From assembly GCA_018970395.1 (NCBI GenBank), contig JAGWWM010000008.1, positions 1 through 64,000 of the forward strand: a stretch of 64,000 bases of DNA, written 5' to 3'. Origin of the DNA: Bacteroidota bacterium (lineage in GTDB: Bacteria; Bacteroidota; Bacteroidia; Chitinophagales; Chitinophagaceae). Below are positions 16,969 to 46,885 of the stretch, in pieces (the stretch's first letter is position 1; each line of letters starts with the position of its first letter). The translations under genes and the position numbers were made by a program. The notes under the pieces are model-generated. The model was not told the DNA's origin. It saw only the letters and a program-made list of their open reading frames with translations, and searched no databases.

Positions 16969-17031
16969 GTCGTCTTCCTGAGCGTAAACGAAGGATCTCC
17001 TATTGAAGTCAAAAATAAAAAGGCAAAACCA
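16969..17031 (+). repeat. Interspersed repeat copy 1 (GTCGTCnTCCTGAGCG...CGAAGGATCT)
   Basis: A 30-base core at 16969-16998 matches the reverse complement of 19706-19735 with three mismatches, and similarity continues through an AAGTCAAA...AAAAGGCAAAA tail. Strings of this kind are found scattered in many Bacteroidota genomes from general experience. A heptamer array follows at 17045. Confidence 0.7.
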
Positions 17032-17044
17032 AAAGGTTTTATTG

Positions 17045-17065
17045 CTTTTGACCTTTGATCTTTGA
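17045..17065. repeat. Heptamer array (CTTTTGA, CCTTTGA, TCTTTGA)
   Basis: Three units with a 7-base period lie between the interspersed repeat copy and the DUF2141 gene. Confidence 0.6.
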
Positions 17066-17110
17066 TTTTATCAAAAAACATTTCGATAGCGCTCAACATA
17101 AGGTGCCATT

Positions 17111-19595: not shown

Positions 19596-19600
19596 TTATA

Positions 19601-19635
19601 AGAATTAATAATTAGTAATTAAGAATTAATAATTG
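19601..19635. repeat. Heptamer array (ATAATTA type, five units)
   Basis: AGAATTA, ATAATTA, GTAATTA, AGAATTA and ATAATTG follow without a gap, immediately upstream of the ispG start codon. The same unit type recurs at 46804-46845. Confidence 0.75.
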
Positions 19636-19673
19636 TTGGCCTCGACACTGCGATACCATGACAACATGATAAC

Positions 19674-19735
19674 GTTTTTGCCTTTTGACCTTTGACTTTA
19701 ATAATAGATCCTTCGCTAACGCTCAGGATGACGAC
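19674..19735 (-). repeat. Interspersed repeat copy 2, inverted relative to copy 1
   Basis: The core (19706-19735) is the reverse complement of 16969-16998 with three mismatches. The tail (19674-19705) contains CTTTTGA and CCTTTGA heptamers like the tail of copy 1. The two copies bracket the DUF2141 and ispG genes. Confidence 0.7.
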
Positions 19736-19738
19736 TTA

Positions 19739-19773
19739 CAACCGCCAACCGATAACAGCCAACCGACAACGGG
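19739..19773. repeat. Heptamer array (CAACCGA type, five units)
   Basis: CAACCGC, CAACCGA, TAACAGC, CAACCGA and CAACGGG lie next to repeat copy 2 and just after the end of the beta-lactamase-like gene. The same unit type is found at 12297-12324. Confidence 0.75.
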
Positions 19774-29506: not shown

Positions 29507-30565
29507 TTATTTACCCAACCACAACATCACAGCACCTGTAATCAACATATTTATCAATGCCAACGGAATTAAATTTTTCCAACCCAAATTCATCAACTGA
29601 TCGTAACGGAAACGCGGGATCGTCCAGCGTACCCACATGAACAGGAAAAGGAAAAGAATAATTTTAGTCATGAGAACCGCACCGCCAATCAATGCCATGA
29701 TGTTGGCAGACAAGCCCCAGGATGCTTCCTGCACAAAAGGAATATCGTAACCTCCGAAATACAAACTTGCCATTACCGCACTGCTGATGAACATGTTGAT
29801 GTATTCGGCAAAAAGATAAAAGCCCAGTTTCATACTTGAATACTCCGCATGATAACCACCAATCAACTCGTTTTCCGCTTCCGGCAAATCGAAGGGTGTA
29901 CGGTTACATTCGGCAAAAGCGCAAACCAGAAAGATGAAAAATCCTAAAGGTTGGTATATGATATTCCAATTGCCGCCAATTTGCTGTGCCACCATTTCTT
30001 TCATGCTCAGCGTACCGGTGATCATCAACAATGCAATGAGTGAAAGACCCATCGGCAATTCATAGGAAATGATTTGAGAAGCAGCGCGCAAGCCCCCCAT
30101 CAAAGAATATTTGTTGTTACTCGCCCATGATCCAATCATGATCCCATACACGCCCATGCTTACCACACCGAATACATAGAGGATACCGATATTGATATCC
30201 GCAATTTGCAATTCAACCGTACGACCAAAAATTTCGACTTTATCTCCCCATGGAATCACTGCACCCGTGAGCATGGCAGTGATCATTGCCAAGGCAGGAC
30301 CGAGAATAAATAAAAAGCGGCTGGAAGAAGTGGGAATAATTTCTTCTTTGAAAATCAATTTCATCCCATCTGCCAGCGGTTGCAGTAAACCGAAAGGACC
30401 CGCACGGTTTGGACCTAGTCTGTCTTGAATGAAAGCGGCGACTTTTCTTTCCGCGTACGTGGTGTACATTGCCACTACCAAAGAGATAGTGATGATAAAA
30501 CCGATGAAAAGAAATTTCTCCAGCACCAGTAACCAGTCAACCGTCAATAAAAAAGCATTCATCAA
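29507..30565 (-). CDS. nuoH: NADH-quinone oxidoreductase subunit H
   Basis: This is a 352-residue membrane subunit with eight helices. It shows YAERKVAAFIQDRLGPNRAGPFGLLQPLADG, the quinone-chamber loop, and CNRTPFDLPEAENELIGGYHAEYSSM. The start codon overlaps the nuoG stop by 4 bases. The subunit links quinone reduction to proton translocation. Confidence 0.96.
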   Translation of the reverse strand: MMNAFLLTVDWLLVLEKFLFIGFIITISLVVAMYTTYAERKVAAFIQDRLGPNRAGPFGLLQPLADGMKLIFKEEIIPTSSSRFLFILGPALAMITAMLTGAVIPWGDKVEIFGRTVELQIADINIGILYVFGVVSMGVYGIMIGSWASNNKYSLMGGLRAASQIISYELPMGLSLIALLMITGTLSMKEMVAQQIGGNWNIIYQPLGFFIFLVCAFAECNRTPFDLPEAENELIGGYHAEYSSMKLGFYLFAEYINMFISSAVMASLYFGGYDIPFVQEASWGLSANIMALIGGAVLMTKIILFLFLFMWVRWTIPRFRYDQLMNLGWKNLIPLALINMLITGAVMLWLGK

Positions 30566-31671
30566 TTCGATTTCTTAATTGGTTTATAATTCTGAGAAGT
30601 GGTAGGACCTTTAATTTCGCTCAGTTCCACCTGATTCACTTCACTTATATCTTTAATATCCATTAATAGTTTGGGTACTCTTCCACCCATCACGCGCGGC
30701 ATTGTTTCTGCGGGTTTTTTAAGATGCTCGTAATGTCCTTGTGAAATCACCGAATGACGATTCACTTTGCTGGGACCTTCAATTACCCAATCGCTTGCTT
30801 TCTTTCTTTCGAAGCGACATTTATTACAGATCCAACCCGGGGTACCTTTAGAGCTTTGTTTAACTTCACCCCACTCATCTTTTCTGGCCGTTACGCGTAA
30901 CACTTCATCACCGCGCATCCAAAGTTGCACTTCACCGCTGCATGTATCGCAATTGCAATGTGCATCCACCGGTTTGGTAAACCATACCCGATTTTTGAAA
31001 CGGAAGGTTTTATCAGTCAAGGCTCCCACCGGACAAACATCAATTACGTTGCCTATGAAATCGTTGTTGAGGTTTTGTTCGATAAGGGTGGCGATCTCTG
31101 CATGATCACCCCGCATGAGAATACCATGTTTACGTTCGGTGCTCACCTGATCCGCTACATACACGCAACGATAGCAGAGGATGCAGCGCGTCATGTGCAG
31201 CTGAATGTATTCGCCTAAATTATGTTTGTCGAAAGTGCGGCGTTTGAATTCGTAGCGACTAGCGCCTTTACCGTGTTCGTAACTTAAATCCTGCAGGTGA
31301 CATTCCCCAGCCTGATCGCAGATGGGGCAGTCGAGCGGATGATTGATGAGTAAGAATTCCACTACACCATTTCTAGCATCGAGCACGCGTTCGCTCGTAA
31401 TGTTTTTTACCACCATGCCATCCATTACCGTGGTGCGGCAACTGGCAACCAGTTTGGGCATCGGGCGCGGATCAGCGGCGGAACCGGCTGCCACTTCTAC
31501 CAGACAAGTGCGGCATTTTCCGCCGCTGTCCTTCAGGGTCGTATAGTAACACATCGCAGGAGGCGCTACTTCACCGCCGATTTTGCGAGCTGCCTGCAAA
31601 ATGGTAGTGCCAGCCTCCACTTCAACAGTGATGTTGTCTATGGTTACTTTGAATAATTTGTTTTCGCTCAT
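30562..31671 (-). CDS. nuoG: NADH-quinone oxidoreductase subunit G, short form
   Basis: This is a 369-residue subunit holding the iron-sulfur part only. Motifs in order: a [2Fe-2S] ferredoxin domain (CYYTTLKDSGGKCRTC, then SCRT), the His/Cys cluster motif HPLDCPICDQAGEC, and a [4Fe-4S] motif CILCYRC with DVCPVG. Two further pairs, CNCDTC and CNKC, resemble the extra cluster at the start of the molybdopterin-like domain. That domain of about 500 residues is absent. The stop codon is coupled to nuoH, so this is an intact short form, as known in other Bacteroidota. Four bases overlap nuoH. Confidence 0.93.
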   Translation of the reverse strand: MSENKLFKVTIDNITVEVEAGTTILQAARKIGGEVAPPAMCYYTTLKDSGGKCRTCLVEVAAGSAADPRPMPKLVASCRTTVMDGMVVKNITSERVLDARNGVVEFLLINHPLDCPICDQAGECHLQDLSYEHGKGASRYEFKRRTFDKHNLGEYIQLHMTRCILCYRCVYVADQVSTERKHGILMRGDHAEIATLIEQNLNNDFIGNVIDVCPVGALTDKTFRFKNRVWFTKPVDAHCNCDTCSGEVQLWMRGDEVLRVTARKDEWGEVKQSSKGTPGWICNKCRFERKKASDWVIEGPSKVNRHSVISQGHYEHLKKPAETMPRVMGGRVPKLLMDIKDISEVNQVELSEIKGPTTSQNYKPIKKSN

Positions 31672-31703
31672 GTTATTTTATTTCGCACCTTATTGACTGT
31701 TAA

Positions 31704-31781
31704 AAGTCAAAGGTCAAAAGTCAAAACCAAAAAATTAAAATTCAATACATTTCAAAACTCAAAAGTCAAAACCAAGAAGTT
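31704..31781. repeat. Left arm of inverted repeat, heptamer units
   Basis: AAAGTC-type heptamers (for example AAAAGTC, AAAGGTC, AAAAGTC) run from about 31702, with a second block at 31755-31781. The block pairs with 32161-32247 in inverted orientation. It follows the nuoG start codon region by about 33 bases. Confidence 0.75.
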
Positions 31782-31792
31782 AGATACAGAAT

Positions 31793-32143
31793 CTAAATAC
31801 CTTTCTTCAACTTTATTATACAAGCAGCTATTATCCTGGATAATTCATCTGCTTCTCTAAGTATATCTTTCAACTCATCCGACTTTTCTTCAAATCCGTC
31901 CATCACTAATGAAATCCAATATTTTGTTTCGTTCGCCGATTTTAAAGCTATTTCATAATAGCGTTTAAATTCTAAGCGAGTTGAACTATTCTTAGCTTCA
32001 GTTAAATTAGCGCCTACTGATACAGCGGATCTCATTAACTGCTTAACTAATACTATTCCGAGATAATCCCATTTTTTACTTCTCAAAAACTTAATAATGC
32101 GAAGCGAAAAAAGATAAGATCTCTGGTTTAGGTGGAAATTCAT
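31793..32143 (-). CDS. Four-helix-bundle protein (23S rRNA intervening-sequence protein family)
   Basis: This is a 116-residue helical protein. The pattern of a first helix with RSYLFSLRIIKFL, then LVKQLMRSAVSVGANLTEAKNSSTRLEFKRYYEIALKSANETKYWISL and a last helix with ELSRIIAACIIKLKK matches the S23/IVS four-helix-bundle family. Members were first seen inside 23S rRNA intervening sequences and are common as scattered single genes in Bacteroidota; relatives serve as accessory proteins in diversity-generating retroelements. Molecular role is not established. The gene sits inside an inverted-repeat-bounded segment in the nuo operon, in the same direction as nuo. Confidence 0.82.
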   Translation of the reverse strand: MNFHLNQRSYLFSLRIIKFLRSKKWDYLGIVLVKQLMRSAVSVGANLTEAKNSSTRLEFKRYYEIALKSANETKYWISLVMDGFEEKSDELKDILREADELSRIIAACIIKLKKGI

Positions 32144-32160
32144 AAATAGGTGTATTTAGC

Positions 32161-32250
32161 AACTTATTGGGTTTTGACATTTGTCTTTTACCTTAACCAA
32201 AACCAACAGTCAACCAGTTATAGGTTTTGACTTTTGACCTTTGACTTAAC
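32161..32250. repeat. Right arm of inverted repeat, heptamer units
   Basis: GGTTTTGA, CTTTTGA, CCTTTGA and CTTAAC units (32223-32250) mirror the left arm. The arm overlaps the stop codon of nuoF (32246-32248). Confidence 0.75.
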
Positions 32251-33598
32251 TTAAAACCTCCAAAGGCTCCGCATACTTCGCCAACCCAAAATTTCTTTTT
32301 TGCGCCTCATCCGCATTCGTTACATGCCACTCAAACTCATCGCGAAAATGACGAATCGCTGCCGCAACCGGCCATGCAGCCGCATCACCCAGCGGACAAA
32401 TCGTATTTCCTTCAATCTTACGCTGTATATCCCACAACAAATCAATATCACTCATCTTGCCTTTCCCGTTCTCAATATTCAATAAAATCTTCTCCATCCA
32501 ACCCGTTCCTTCACGACAGGGAGAACACTGACCGCAACTTTCATGACGATAGAATCTTGCAAGCGTATAAGTATGCTTCACCACGCACTGATCTTCATCC
32601 ATCACAATAAATCCACCACTTCCCATCATACTGCCCGTTGCAAAGCCGCCATCACTCAGACTCTCATACGTCATCATGCGCGTTTCCCCTTTGGCAGTCT
32701 TCAATAATAAATTCGCAGGAAGAATAGGAACCGATGAACCACCCGGTATGCAGGCTTTTAAACGTTTGCCATTGGAAATACCACCGCAATATTCATCACT
32801 GTAAATAAATTCTTCTACCGAAATATTCATCTCTATTTCATACACACCGGGCTTGTTGATATTGCCGCAGGCTGAAATGAGTTTTGTACCGGTGGATTTA
32901 CCAATACCAATCTTTGCATATTCTTCTCCGCCATCGTTTACAATCGGAACAACCGCTGCAATCGTTTCTACATTGTTTACTACTGTCGGACATCCCCACA
33001 AACCTTTCACCGCAGGGAATGGAGGTTTGATGCGGGGGTTACCACGTTTCCCCTCGAGCGATTCGATTAATGCCGTTTCTTCACCGCAGATATAAGCTCC
33101 TGCACCCGGTTGTACATATACTTCACAATCGAAGCCGCTGCCTAAAATATTTTTACCCAACCATCCTGCATTTTTTGCTTCCGCAATCGCTTGTTCCAGA
33201 ATTTCTTTCACCCACCAGTATTCCCCACGGATATAAATGTAAGAACGATTACTACCAAGCGCATACGATGCAAGGATCATTCCTTCAATCAGCAAATGCG
33301 GAATGAATTCCATTAGATAGCGATCCTTAAAAGTACCCGGTTCACTTTCATCTGCATTACACACTACATAACGGGGAACGCCTTCAGGCTTTGCCAAAAA
33401 ACTCCATTTCATTCCTGTAGGAAATCCCGCACCACCGCGACCGCGCAATCCACTCTTTTTCACTTCTTCTACAATCGCTTCGGGACTCATGGACTTGAGG
33501 GCTTTTTCAACACTGCGATAGCCGCCTTCTCTGCGGTACACATCGTAATGACGTATGCCTTCAATATGTGCTTTGTCTAATAATAATTTTCTTCCCAT
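32246..33598 (-). CDS. nuoF: NADH-quinone oxidoreductase subunit F
   Basis: This is a 450-residue NADH-binding subunit. It shows GLRGRGGAGFPTGMKW (NADH/FMN site), CNADESEPGTFKDR (FMN) and the [4Fe-4S] motif SCGQCSPCREGTGWM with a later Cys in ICPLGDAAAWP. It takes electrons from NADH and passes them to the iron-sulfur chain. It follows nuoE after 9 bases. Its stop codon lies in the inverted repeat of the insertion. Confidence 0.96.
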   Translation of the reverse strand: MGRKLLLDKAHIEGIRHYDVYRREGGYRSVEKALKSMSPEAIVEEVKKSGLRGRGGAGFPTGMKWSFLAKPEGVPRYVVCNADESEPGTFKDRYLMEFIPHLLIEGMILASYALGSNRSYIYIRGEYWWVKEILEQAIAEAKNAGWLGKNILGSGFDCEVYVQPGAGAYICGEETALIESLEGKRGNPRIKPPFPAVKGLWGCPTVVNNVETIAAVVPIVNDGGEEYAKIGIGKSTGTKLISACGNINKPGVYEIEMNISVEEFIYSDEYCGGISNGKRLKACIPGGSSVPILPANLLLKTAKGETRMMTYESLSDGGFATGSMMGSGGFIVMDEDQCVVKHTYTLARFYRHESCGQCSPCREGTGWMEKILLNIENGKGKMSDIDLLWDIQRKIEGNTICPLGDAAAWPVAAAIRHFRDEFEWHVTNADEAQKRNFGLAKYAEPLEVLS

Positions 33599-33607
33599 AG
33601 TTACTGC

Positions 33608-34090
33608 TTATTTCTTTCTCCCCTCCTCTATCAATGCATCAATTTTTTCTTTCGTCAGATGTTCTCTGTAATCAGGCCCCAACTGCATCATTGGCGCATA
33701 ACCGCAAGCACCCAAGCACTCCACTACTTTCAAAGTGAATAAACCATCTTCAGTGGTTTGTCCGGGTTTAATGCCCAACTTCTCATATATGTACGCCACA
33801 ATATCATCACTTCCTCTCAACATACAAGGGCCGGTCTGACAAACCTCAAATACGGTTTTACCCACCGGCTGGAGATTATACATGCTGTAAAAAGTAGCAA
33901 CCTCATATACTTCAATCGGCTTGATATGGAGCAACTCTGCGGCATAATCCATTGCTTCTGAACTCAGCCATCCGCCGTTTTCTTTTTGAATGAAATGCAG
34001 CAGCGGAATTAAAGCACTCTTCTGCTTTCCTTCCGGATAATGAGATACGATCTCATCTACTGCCTTTAATTTATCTTCTGAAAATCGCAT
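33608..34090 (-). CDS. nuoE: NADH-quinone oxidoreductase subunit E
   Basis: This is a 160-residue thioredoxin-like subunit with the [2Fe-2S] ligands CQTGPC near residue 85 and CLGAC near residue 126. The start codon shares one base with the stop of the inserted nucleotidyltransferase gene (TAATG), so translation is coupled to the insert instead of to nuoD directly. Confidence 0.95.
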   Translation of the reverse strand: MRFSEDKLKAVDEIVSHYPEGKQKSALIPLLHFIQKENGGWLSSEAMDYAAELLHIKPIEVYEVATFYSMYNLQPVGKTVFEVCQTGPCMLRGSDDIVAYIYEKLGIKPGQTTEDGLFTLKVVECLGACGYAPMMQLGPDYREHLTKEKIDALIEEGRKK

Positions 34091-34566
34091 TATGAATTTT
34101 TTCTTTTTCTACTTTTAAGCTTTTCAACATCAGCAATGTCCTGAGGTCTTCCTGCTTTTAATTTCACTTTCAATAACTCATTATATCCAATGAATGGCAC
34201 TTCCACGTTTTCATAATTCACTATTTTTCTGTTCTCCCATGCCTCATCAAAAGATACTCCATCAATGTCATTTAATATGTCAATTCTTAAAGGCTCATAC
34301 CCCAATTGTGTAATAAAATTTGGACTCATAAAATCATCTTTTGTAAGATTTAATGAACCAAAACCAAATTCATCAATAACCCTTAAGAGCTTTTCGGCAT
34401 TTTCTAAAGTCATCTGAATACAAATATCCAGATCCTTTGTATATCTAGGGTAACCATGCACACTCACTGCGAATCCCCCAACCACCAAATACTTTACACT
34501 ATGTTTATTACAAATCTGCACAAAATCGAGAAAGTCTCCTTCAATATTTCGGGCATTACTATTCAT
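34090..34566 (-). CDS. Nucleotidyltransferase-like protein inserted in nuo
   Basis: This is a 158-residue protein. The motif VVGGFAVSVHGYPRYTKDLDI (about residues 28-48) has the GG and DLD elements of the DNA-polymerase-beta-like nucleotidyltransferase fold, as in the AbiEii/DUF6036-like group. A later acidic position is in LRIDILNDIDG. Related proteins include toxins of toxin-antitoxin pairs, but this one has no HEPN or AbiEi partner. A small protein gene overlaps its 5' end by 8 bases and is the likely partner. The start at 34566 is preferred over 34587. Complex I has no known need for it. Confidence 0.75.
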   Translation of the reverse strand: MNSNARNIEGDFLDFVQICNKHSVKYLVVGGFAVSVHGYPRYTKDLDICIQMTLENAEKLLRVIDEFGFGSLNLTKDDFMSPNFITQLGYEPLRIDILNDIDGVSFDEAWENRKIVNYENVEVPFIGYNELLKVKLKAGRPQDIADVEKLKSRKRKNS

Positions 34567-34768
34567 CGCACAAATTTCTTTTAACAATGACTCTCTCTAT
34601 TCTGTCAGGAATTTTCAAATCATTGCCGAATTGAATACTTCTCAACATAAATGCATGCCTCAACCTATCTTCATACGAAGCTTCACTCCAATAAAGATCA
34701 TCTGCCTCTTCTGCTTCCGCAAAAGAAACCTTTTTAACTACGGCCTGTATATTTCTTTTTTTCTCCAT
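34559..34768 (-). CDS. Small partner protein of the inserted nucleotidyltransferase
   Basis: This 69-residue protein has a basic N-terminus and a YEDRLRHAFMLRSIQFG helix, ending in RNLCDE. The pattern DDLYW-(S/A)-x-(A/L)SYEDRL resembles small Bacteroidota proteins encoded next to nucleotidyltransferases; I do not know a family name. The ATG shares one base with the nuoD stop (TAATG), and the gene overlaps the nucleotidyltransferase by 8 bases. A two-gene unit, possibly toxin-antitoxin-like, is inferred. Confidence 0.62.
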   Translation of the reverse strand: MEKKRNIQAVVKKVSFAEAEEADDLYWSEASYEDRLRHAFMLRSIQFGNDLKIPDRIERVIVKRNLCDE

Positions 34769-35994
34769 TACGCATCCAATTCACCCGCAATCAAATTTAG
34801 ACTACTCATCACCACAATCGCATCGCTCAGCATTGCTCCTTTTATCAACTCAGGATATGCCTGATAATAGATGAAACAAGGACGACGGAAATGCAAACGA
34901 TATGGCGTTCTTCCGCCATCACTGATCAAATAAAATCCCAACTCGCCATTCGCGCCTTCTACCGAATGATACACTTCCCCTTTCGGCATATCAATCTCAC
35001 CCATAATAATCTTGAAATGCCAGATCAACGCTTCCATACTGGTATATACTTCCTGCTTGGGAGGGAGATAATACTCAGGTACATTGGCATGATATACTTC
35101 CGCATCAGCACCTTTGATGTTCTGAATTTTTTGATACGCCTGATTGATCAGACTCAAGCTCTGCCACATTTCTTCATTGCGCACCAGGAAACGATCGTAT
35201 GAATCGCCCGTTGTACCGACCGGAACAATAAATTCAAAATCCTGATAAGAACAGTAGGGCGTATGCACCCGCACGTCATAATCTACCCCTGCCGCACGAA
35301 GATTCGGTCCGGTGAAACCATAATTCAGCGCTCTTTCCGCGCTGATTGGTCCGCAGCCAATGGTTCTTTCCATGAAGATGCGGTTGCGTGTAAAGAGATC
35401 TTCAAACTCTTTGAGTGCTTTGGGATATTCTTTCAGGAATTTTTCCAGTTTCTCCCAGGCAACAGGCGTAAAGTTTCTTTCAAAACCGCCAATTCTTCCA
35501 ATATTTGTTGTCAATCTGCTGCCGCAAATTTCCTCATAAATTTCATAAATCAATTCACGATACTCCATCAGGTACACAAATCCTGAGAAAGCACCGGTAT
35601 CAACGCCCAAAATGGAATTACAGATCAGATGATCGGAAATACGCGCTAATTCCATAATTATCACACGCATATAATCCACTCGCTTAGGCGTTTCAATGTT
35701 CAATAATCTCTCACAGGTTGTATGCCAGCCGATATTATTGATCGGACTGCTGCAATAATTCAACCGATCCGTGATGGGCGTTACCTGATAAAGAGGTCTG
35801 CGTTCTGCTAGTTTTTCAAAAGCACGATGAATATAGCCAACAGTAGATTCAGCACTTTGCACGCGCTCCCCATCCATCTCCAGAATATTCTGAAATACCC
35901 CGTGCGTAGCAGGGTGCGTAGGACCCAAGTTCAGCGTAGTCGTTTGCTTTTCTATCGAACCCTCGGGCAACAATATATTTTGAACGTCACTCAT
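34768..35994 (-). CDS. nuoD: NADH-quinone oxidoreductase subunit D
   Basis: This is a 408-residue 49-kDa-type subunit. It has LNLGPTHPATHGVFQNIL near residue 20, GYIHRAFEKLAE, and a C-terminal PYRLHFRRPCFIY region, as expected for the quinone-site subunit. NuoC and NuoD are separate genes here, unlike the fused E. coli form. The spacer to nuoC contains a heptamer array. Confidence 0.96.
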   Translation of the reverse strand: MSDVQNILLPEGSIEKQTTTLNLGPTHPATHGVFQNILEMDGERVQSAESTVGYIHRAFEKLAERRPLYQVTPITDRLNYCSSPINNIGWHTTCERLLNIETPKRVDYMRVIIMELARISDHLICNSILGVDTGAFSGFVYLMEYRELIYEIYEEICGSRLTTNIGRIGGFERNFTPVAWEKLEKFLKEYPKALKEFEDLFTRNRIFMERTIGCGPISAERALNYGFTGPNLRAAGVDYDVRVHTPYCSYQDFEFIVPVGTTGDSYDRFLVRNEEMWQSLSLINQAYQKIQNIKGADAEVYHANVPEYYLPPKQEVYTSMEALIWHFKIIMGEIDMPKGEVYHSVEGANGELGFYLISDGGRTPYRLHFRRPCFIYYQAYPELIKGAMLSDAIVVMSSLNLIAGELDA

Positions 35995-36015
35995 TTTCTG
36001 TTAATAAAGGTTATA

Positions 36016-36050
36016 AAACTTTCAACCTACAACCTACAACTTTCAACTTA
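36016..36050. repeat. Heptamer array (CAACCTA type, five units)
   Basis: AAACTTT, CAACCTA, CAACCTA, CAACTTT and CAACTTA lie between nuoD and nuoC. The stop codon of nuoC (36043-36045) is within the array. Confidence 0.75.
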
Positions 36051-36561
36051 TGTTTCCTCCCCTTCCAAACATCTCATCATCTTTATCAATTCGCGTTTGG
36101 TCTTCCAACGGAAACTCTTTCCTCAACGGAAAATAATCCATCTCATCTACATTCAATACCCTTTTCAAGTTTGGATGTCCCACGAAATTAACCCCAAAGA
36201 AATCGTATGTCTCCCGCTCCATCCAATTAGCCGTAGCAAATAGCTGCGTAGCAGTAAAAACATCCGGCTGATCTATCGAAGTAAATATTTTGAAACGAAT
36301 GCGCAGATTGTCCACCAGATTATGCAGATGATATACCACAGCTAATTCTCTTCCTTTATCATCAGGATAATGCACTGCCTGCAAGTCAGTCAGAAAACGA
36401 AACTTCAGTATTTCATCATCGTATAAAAATTGTAGCACCTTTAAATTCAGTTCCTTGGGTGCTTCAAAACTGAGCATGCCATAGGGCTCAGAGAAATTGC
36501 TCACCTGATCTCCAAACTTCTCGATTATTCTTGCCTGTACTTGTTCGTTCGTTAGTGACAT
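36043..36561 (-). CDS. nuoC: NADH-quinone oxidoreductase subunit C
   Basis: This is a 172-residue 30-kDa-type subunit. It carries RFLTDLQAVHYPDDKGRELAVVYHL and the family signature ERETYDFFGVNFVGHPNLKRVLNVDE (about residues 113-140), then FPLRKEFPLEDQTRIDKDD. Its last codons run into a heptamer array. It precedes nuoD as a separate gene. Confidence 0.94.
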   Translation of the reverse strand: MSLTNEQVQARIIEKFGDQVSNFSEPYGMLSFEAPKELNLKVLQFLYDDEILKFRFLTDLQAVHYPDDKGRELAVVYHLHNLVDNLRIRFKIFTSIDQPDVFTATQLFATANWMERETYDFFGVNFVGHPNLKRVLNVDEMDYFPLRKEFPLEDQTRIDKDDEMFGRGGNIS

Positions 36562-46795: not shown

Positions 46796-46803
46796 AAAAC
46801 TCT

Positions 46804-46845
46804 TGATTAATAATTAGTAATTAATAATTAATAATTAATAATTGA
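46804..46845. repeat. Heptamer array (TAATTAA type, six units)
   Basis: TGATTAA, TAATTAG, three copies of TAATTAA and TAATTGA run without a gap between the convergent pseudouridine synthase and rimM genes. The same unit type occurs at 19601-19635. Confidence 0.8.
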
Positions 46846-46885
46846 AAACTTACAACCAACAAATTCTAGTTTTTATCTTTTGTGC

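Follow-up and report, generated by a model that had tools for sequence, protein, structure and literature searches.

In REPIN-RAYT systems, a gene is flanked by a repeat with GTAG palindromes that is also scattered without the gene, often in inverted pairs, through the genome. The names REPIN-RAYT and, for heptamer repeats, STRR are used here for repeats to which we take them to apply. In the intervening sequence (IVS) of Coxiella 23S rRNA, tandem GACAGAT heptamers precede the open reading frame (ORF) of S23p, and the IVS is excised by RNase III; excerpts of that report describe both S23p and a Xanthomonas protein as pentameric and give S23p no known function (PMC4990558). In an excerpt of another report, the family to which S23p belongs, PF05635, is said to resemble Avd (PMC10053308). 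Heptamer repeats of the STRR type include TAACTGA of Beggiatoaceae, GGGAATC of Xanthomonas, and the heptamers of Nostoc, and 70 and 75 inverted heptamer pairs have been counted in two Xanthomonas genomes; excerpts of these papers give no settled cause for the arrays of cyanobacteria, Beggiatoaceae, Xanthomonas, and others (PMC4692102, PMC4679880). In the open-access literature, we found no paper that links intergenic heptamers with genes of the S23p family, called IVP genes below.

The IVP gene between nuoF and nuoG

The window analyzed here is a stretch of 64,000 nucleotides from a Bacteroidota bacterium (assembly GCA_018970395.1, contig JAGWWM010000008.1). The host gene names nuoF, nuoG, prfB, P5CDH, gyrB, and pheT are our presumptive assignments from the translations, nuoF and nuoG having also been named in a preliminary description of this DNA. 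An element of about 0.5 kb lies between nuoF and nuoG, with the following features in the order of transcription.

32246..33598, minus strand: nuoF, the host gene upstream in transcription, its C terminus ending in the arm (ORF list; junction comparison)
32217..32247, minus strand: 5' heptamer arm (gene sense), perfect core 32223-32247, overlapping the nuoF stop codon
32161..32202, minus strand: right inner heptamer copy, degenerate (D2, I2, I8)
31793..32143, minus strand: IVP/S23p four-helix-bundle gene, 116 aa, in sense with the nuo operon (PF05635, TIGR02436, AF2)
31752..31782, plus strand: left inner heptamer copy (direct-repeat family D1; inverted pairs I3, I8)
31696..31734, plus strand: 3' heptamer arm, repeating the 5' arm in inverted form (perfect core, 31704-31728)
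30562..31671, minus strand: nuoG-type host gene, downstream in transcription (ORF list; junction comparison)

Most of what the preliminary description had reported for this segment was reproduced. Recomputation gave 31704-31728 as the exact reverse complement of 32223-32247 over 25 nt, and the inner pair 31765-31781/32161-32178 is near-complementary (GTCAAAACCAAGAAGTT versus GTCAAAACCCAATAAGTT), with one bulge and one mismatch. The 116-aa minus-strand ORF is, as claimed, a single intact four-helix-bundle gene in the operon direction, with scores of 66.8 bits against PF05635 (curated cutoff, 33.8) and 78.7 bits against TIGR02436 (curated cutoff, 24). It is also the sole ORF of at least 80 aa in the element on the ORF list, which bears out the claimed absence of a transposase; among ORFs of that length, the element does not encode the transposase that defines a classical transposon. 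TRF assigned both arms a period of 7 with the unit AAAAGTC/TTTTGAC. The arm pair scored 25. None of 200 first-order resamplings of the flanks gave more than 19.5, and 25 was also the highest value among 369 ORFs taken from the window plus 400 kb of further stretches. AF2 modeled the protein as four helices (residues 3-21, 27-51, 56-83, and 89-113; mean pLDDT, 95.3). The nearest solved folds, 2rld and 2gsc (XCC0516 of Xanthomonas campestris), each contain five chains. Avd (4dwl) and a DGR RNP (8ub7) came further down the ranking, after some unrelated bundles and with weaker E values (at least 0.16).

The element had also been described as landing cleanly in the operon. This was not borne out: nuoF takes its stop codon from the arm, and its last residues (...EPLEVLS) differ from those in the same-genus locus L072 (...EVAVPTA). 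Elsewhere in the same operon, a nucleotidyltransferase-like gene (DUF6036/DUF2204) and more sequence lie between the nuoE-type and nuoD-type genes (window positions 34090-34770), where no heptamer arms were seen by eye.

Inverted arms, words, and orientation across IVP loci

PF05635 matches were found in 150 of 195 genomes of the same taxonomic family. In a first set of 32 loci (34 less L021 and L040, whose ORFs were mis-framed), the inverted flank score exceeded the direct score in 31, lay above all 200 resamplings in 27, and reached 13.5 in 29; where the best flank periodicity reached 0.76, the period was 7 in 21 of the 32 loci and 8 in 6, with no other period from 3 to 12. An earlier control, which compared left flanks with the right flanks of other loci, had a null 95th percentile of 49.5 and was spoiled by orthologous loci and by the mis-framed L021 and L040. 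A second set took every listed IVP gene of five genomes and so avoided the choice of best matches (54 matches, two of them second pieces; L331 and L332 were not used). Among these 52 genes, inverted exceeded direct in 47, and 42 lay above 100 resamplings. The preliminary description had looked to other copies without such flanks as evidence against a repeat-bounded unit; 42 of the 52 have strong inverted flanks (score of at least 13.5), while 10 fall below that score and three loci (L041, L052, and L322) are without any signal. With the same score applied to control ORFs of at least 90 aa, taken from the window and 20 other 20-kb stretches, only 3 of 369 reached 13.5, one of them the window gene itself, and inverted exceeded direct in 38.5%.

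The pooled set behaved similarly, with scores of at least 13.5 in 91 of 119 loci and inverted above direct in 110. It was obtained by removing 8 short-contig loci (leaving 135), 10 loci with stops, short ORFs, or short flanks (leaving 125), and 6 near-duplicates at 90% identity, of the kind exemplified by L133, which is L035 from another collection; the 90% removal applies also to the linkage, polarity, 4-fold-site, and own-flank tests below. The source genome itself has four PF05635 genes. At each of them the inverted flank score exceeds both the resamplings and the direct score, and their words differ: about ACGATAA at L001, TAATTAG at L002, and AAAAGTC in the window, with a GC-rich inverted match of no clear period 7 at L003. 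The IVP gene of L003 adjoins a long GC-rich array of ~56-nt units (1051-1440).

A multiphylum scan gave 79 usable loci, the best 80 of at least 586 matched stretches of named genomes less one incomplete locus; being picked by similarity to one subfamily, they are not a random sample of phyla. Inverted exceeded direct in 71 and lay above all 100 resamplings in 51, and among 60 loci with clear periodicity the period was 7 in 38, 8 in 19, and another in 3. The titles among the matches listed, many of them metagenome bins, include Bacteroidota, Planctomycetes, Clostridia, Acidobacteria, Elusimicrobia, Omnitrophota, Nitrospirae, SAR324, Deltaproteobacteria, Campylobacteraceae, a Gottesmanbacterium, and others. 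A tblastn search with the window protein matched 24 plasmid records, 10 of them from Nostoc. Of 10 plasmid records examined, nine had inverted arms above 200 resamplings (in L338, an arm of 39 nt without mismatch); the exceptions in form were L337 with direct arms only, L334 with a direct score of 42.5 versus 29 inverted, and L339 with a long inverted repeat of no clear period. The words of the Nostoc plasmid copies L338 and L340 are TAATTCG and GGAAGTC, respectively. The loci gathered before the plasmid records gave no match to Escherichia coli 23S rRNA, the L012 protein gave none in a phage collection, and annotation by PADLOC gave no defense match. The heptamer-arm design is real and general around IVP genes.

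Where both arms are periodic, the period is identical in 64 of 66 loci, with medians of 4.6 and 4.4 repeats per arm, and 64 of 99 loci have no more than 20 nt between the stop codon and the start of the 3' arm. Of 93 loci, 85 have more G than C on the strand that reads inward, 5 have less, and 3 have equal amounts; the excess of G is seen in 15 of 16 protein clusters, compared with 137 of 306 control ORFs. The window copy is one of the five against the usual polarity. Chromosomal armed loci show a strong orientation bias: 85 of 95 lie in sense between co-directional neighbors, with 3 antisense, 6 divergent, and 1 convergent (99 loci with near-duplicates kept, less 4 without two readable neighbors), against a background co-directional share of 52.5% of 913 ORFs in 60 stretches. 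Ten plasmid copies, by annotation, comprised 5 in sense between co-directional genes, 3 divergent, and 2 antisense (L336 and L337), and with no such bias the sense rule fails on plasmids. In L336 and L337, both cyanobacterial plasmids, the IVP genes lie between cas2 and cas1, antisense to both.

The arms are matched to their own locus. The own right flank was a better match than every right flank from loci of less than 50% protein identity in 82 of 119 cases and ranked in the top 5% in 102. Between taxon labels, motif similarity followed protein identity (Mantel r = 0.205, reached in 0 of 999 permutations; 93 armed loci after near-duplicate removal at 90%, with home-family names merged). A different taxon here means a differing name label in the record title, which is not always another phylum. 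A common motif (5-mer cosine of >0.3) was found in 24 of 56 pairs at 60% amino acid identity or more, 27 of 408 at 50 to 60%, and 37 of 2,621 below 50%; at this threshold, 32 of the 56 different-taxon pairs of the closest class had no common motif. Among pairs whose 4-fold degenerate sites were less than 45% identical, the word was common to 25 of 97 at 55 to 90% amino acid identity and to 16 of 36 at 60% or more. Copies from Desulfobacteraceae and KSB1, in the set without near-duplicate removal, are both of the AGGCACAA type at a 4-fold identity of 0.19.

As judged from these sequence comparisons, the heptamer word differs by locus but is evidently linked to the protein subfamily, even across phyla at which synonymous sites look saturated. 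Since unconstrained drift would be expected to erase a common word, selection on the word is the simplest reading, and recognition by the protein would be its natural cause; common descent of a linked unit can also give rise to the linkage. The preliminary description of a repeat-bounded cargo unit holds for the one-gene unit and not for mere cargo: arm word and protein subfamily go together.

Occupied sites, empty sites, and gene-less arrays

The nuoF-nuoG junction was compared in 28 cases, including that of the window (L098 and L099, distant nuoF-like matches, were excluded). Four junctions carry an IVP element, one of them decayed (L088), and another 10 are empty and short. A PF13366-type gene with arms of a different kind occupies 6; of the rest, 2 have a non-coding inverted element, 1 has a solitary period-9 array, and 5 were unreadable. 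The contrast of 4 occupied with 10 empty junctions supports the one-gene unit with heptamer ends that had been proposed, and with the IVP gene at only 4 of 28 junctions, the outcome that had been named as contrary evidence, the same gene at the same place in most relatives, did not arise among these relatives. In the 520 nt after prfB (prfB-P5CDH junction, read by eye), an IVP gene is present in the source genome alone of 14, and L236 has a gene-less inverted pair there.

What the element displaces was read from pairs of occupied and empty sites. At nuoF-nuoG, comparison of L074 with L073 indicates that some 40 nt were replaced (by eye). On Nostoc plasmids, the element lies inside a DNA cytosine methyltransferase gene in L335, L347, and L348, while the gene is intact in L344 to L346 (six of 33 matching records were examined). 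The segment between common anchors measures 330 bp in the intact gene, and in the interrupted gene it consists of 454 to 468 bp of element; CAATTCG, which is the word of this element, occurs in the intact gene 7 nt inward from the left anchor. L338 and L349, which are plasmids from a single strain, have 432 versus 198 bp between anchors and are then identical for 530 nt at the right. No target duplication was seen in these two plasmid cases, with 330 bp and 198 bp replaced, respectively. Target replacement is shown in three comparisons, as far as aligned sequences tell, and the claim of clean insertion is contradicted at these further sites (nuoF-nuoG relatives and plasmids) as well.

The Nostoc arms carry CAATTCG in four copies on each side in L335 and L347 and three on each side in L348. 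Concerted arm length, at which these copies hint, was rejected: Planktothrix disagrees, and the whole set gave a rho of 0.09 (p = 0.47). In the Planktothrix plasmids L334 and L355, the IVP gene adjoins the DISARM gene drmD, and the copy number of the 5' arm varies between strains.

A second gene family, PF13366 (GxxExxY-type PD-(D/E)XK), also occurs in inverted arrays, both at nuoF-nuoG (L077, L079, L082, L085, L090, and L092) and at L100 to L129. Its identity at the junction was confirmed at L082 and assigned by position for L085, L090, and L092; L077 and L079 look frameshifted. These arrays have periods of about 8 to 9 and words such as CGCAAAGA, ACACGGATN, and CACAGAGG, and inverted flanks lay above resamplings in 18 of 27 usable loci (30 less three short ones), some loci having higher direct scores. 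The non-coding inverted element CCCCCTAAATCCCCCAAAGGGGG (L075, L076, and L262) was found in same-genus genomes at nuoF-nuoG, with related sequence at gyrB-DUF1835.

Heptamer arrays also occur away from IVP genes, and two in the window resemble arms of the same genome.

17014..17070, no strand assigned: gene-less hairpin of similar AAAAGTC-type heptamers, read by eye
46801..46856, no strand assigned: solitary TTAATAA/TTAGTAA heptamer array without a gene, matched (cosine, 0.93) by the arms of L002, an IVP copy of the source genome

The window further contains three consecutive arrays of different words (TTAATAA, AAAAGGC, and CAACCGA types) at 19598-19770 and, in the nuo operon, a solitary AACCTAC-type heptamer array at 36013-36052 whose best IVP-arm match comes from another genome. 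Across 464 kb of two genomes, 19 intergenic arrays had a period of 7 or 8 (one being the window element's own arm) and none had any other period from 4 to 13; within coding sequence of the same 464 kb, four arrays had period 7, two had period 6, and one had period 12. Some gene-less arrays form inverted pairs whose members are separated by a few dozen bases or fewer, most clearly at L228 (3976-4073; inverted, 18.0; direct, 7.5); at L215 (11070-11210) and L216 (19075-19167), inverted and direct scores are about equal because the word is nearly palindromic. In 1,264 kb of five genomes (60 stretches of 20 kb plus the window), 36 arrays lying apart from the listed IVP genes were each scored against every IVP arm. 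The best-matching arm came from the array's own genome in 22 of 36 cases, where 6.0 were expected, although 29 of the 36 come from two genomes with few words and so have limited independence; the other 14 matched an IVP arm of another genome better.

Candidate explanations and relation to known systems

The reading that we favor, at a probability of roughly 0.6, is that IVP genes and their arms form a widespread, compact, selfish one-gene element whose ring protein recognizes its own heptamer arrays. The unit would comprise a 5' heptamer array, the IVP gene, and an inverted 3' heptamer array, in all about 0.5 kb. The four-helix-bundle protein, whose solved relatives are five-chain rings, would recognize its own subfamily's word in about four to five repeats per arm, and such recognition would mark the element's ends. 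The medians of 4.6 and 4.4 repeats per arm are close to five, and one repeat may be bound per subunit, of which the closeness is no proof. Gene-less arrays of the same word would be non-autonomous or decayed derivatives. On chromosomes, the IVP gene would be expressed by read-through from the host operon, which under this proposal would account for its persistence mostly in sense between co-directional genes. The element would move, giving rise to the presence and absence seen among relatives, by a cutting or copying activity supplied from elsewhere, and its insertion would replace some target DNA and leave no evident target duplication. In this analysis, movement was not observed and no enzyme was found. 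Y1 transposases, present in all five genomes, were rejected as partners, as none of nine Y1 genes examined (of 15 listed matches in the five genomes) had heptamer flanks. Three Y1 transposase genes (L359, L360, and L362) are flanked by GGCTCCGTAGGAGCC-like (GTAGGAG-type) hairpins that are REP/RAYT-like and without heptamers.

An unlikely competitor is an RNA element in the manner of an IVS: within the operon transcript, the arms would form a stem for RNase III to cut, with release or destruction of the IVP segment, and they would serve in RNA processing and not as DNA ends. The preliminary description had similarly suggested that the arms loop the gene out of the message. The element RNA does fold with its arms paired (z = −3.93; 1 of 100 shuffles was as good), the sense bias is 85:3 among co-directional chromosomal junctions, and the Coxiella 23S IVS, in the excerpt cited, offers a precedent in its RNase III-cut stem and tandem heptamers before S23p (PMC4990558). 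Moreover, 35 of 69 loci have arms whose agreement in register goes beyond that of a common word (p < 0.05), a count that includes near-duplicates and the selection bias of local alignment. Against these points, G-U-compatible mismatches are not enriched in the arms, the skew being opposite (53 wobble-type versus 79 mirror-type; p = 0.03; 99 loci reduced to 93 by removal at 85% identity), which speaks against selection on pairing of the sense RNA; loop-out, though it may occur, is unsupported by the single direct test, that of wobble, and excision followed by religation finds no support in these data. A stem would need neither period 7 nor a word held in common across phyla, gene-less arrays and single arms exist, and two plasmid copies are antisense to both neighbors. 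RNA-mediated mobility resembling that of Avd, in which the protein would bind element RNA through the heptamers and a trans-acting reverse transcriptase would copy it into new sites and replace target DNA, seems to us less probable again. It would accommodate the fold match to 4dwl and 8ub7, the resemblance of PF05635 to Avd stated in the excerpt of that report (PMC10053308), the chromosomal sense bias, and the replaced target DNA, but a reverse transcriptase (PF00078) was found in only two of the five genomes and is absent from three, including the source genome (G000), and was on that ground rejected as a partner; no retro-signature was noticed in unsystematic reading.

The remaining alternatives separate the arms from the gene. 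Heptamer hairpins might spread independently, with IVP genes as passengers that land in them, and gene-less hairpins do occur, even (L236) at a junction that holds an IVP gene in another species, as does PF13366 in similar inverted arrays. We consider this improbable, given that 82 of 119 loci find their best match in their own right arm and that the word follows the subfamily across phyla with saturated synonymous sites; such linkage within and across hosts, which would count against passengers, is largely present, with descent of a linked unit as its alternative source. Ordinary slippage repeats beside a small gene, with no functional unit, would account for period-7 arrays elsewhere in the genome, yet with strong inverted flanks at 42 of 52 IVP genes versus 3 of 369 control ORFs, and inverted above direct arm scores in 110 of 119 loci, this explanation carries hardly any weight.

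A broader form of the favored reading is more tentative, and we give it somewhat less than even odds: IVP genes would be pan-bacterial, recombinase-free mobile elements whose ring reads a 7- or 8-letter word, about one per subunit; the STRR load of Bacteroidota, cyanobacteria, and perhaps Xanthomonas would be largely solo ends and gene-less copies; and rRNA IVSs would be copies that landed in rRNA genes. If true, such an element would be mobile without itself encoding a recombinase, and an overlooked class of small mobile elements may explain puzzling repeats in many genomes. Linking the heptamer arrays with S23p makes the questions about both testable, since the predicted binding word of each protein can be read from either flank of its gene, and subfamilies that differ in word provide built-in swap controls.

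Of the known systems, the 23S rRNA IVSs are the closest relative of the element. They share the protein family, an ORF between inverted arms able to form a stem, and the sense orientation with the host transcript. They differ in place, as the window element lies between nuoF and nuoG and others lie between or inside protein genes and not in a 23S rRNA helix, and in their arms, since those of the element consist of heptamer arrays and change from one subfamily to another; RNase III processing is a feature of IVSs, whereas the element is known from sequence. REPIN-RAYT systems are alike in that a gene is flanked by a repeat also found gene-less and inverted-paired in the genome and unlike in that the IVP element has no transposase and carries arrays of 7- to 8-nt units instead of GTAG palindromes. 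Avd of diversity-generating retroelements has a fold similar to that of the window's IVP protein (4dwl and 8ub7); no match to the reverse transcriptase family PF00078 was found in the source genome. STRR-type repeats, in the excerpts cited above, have the same period of 7 and are largely intergenic, in Bacteroidota and cyanobacteria among others; there they are described without a link to IVP genes, whereas the arrays analyzed here are tied to IVP genes.
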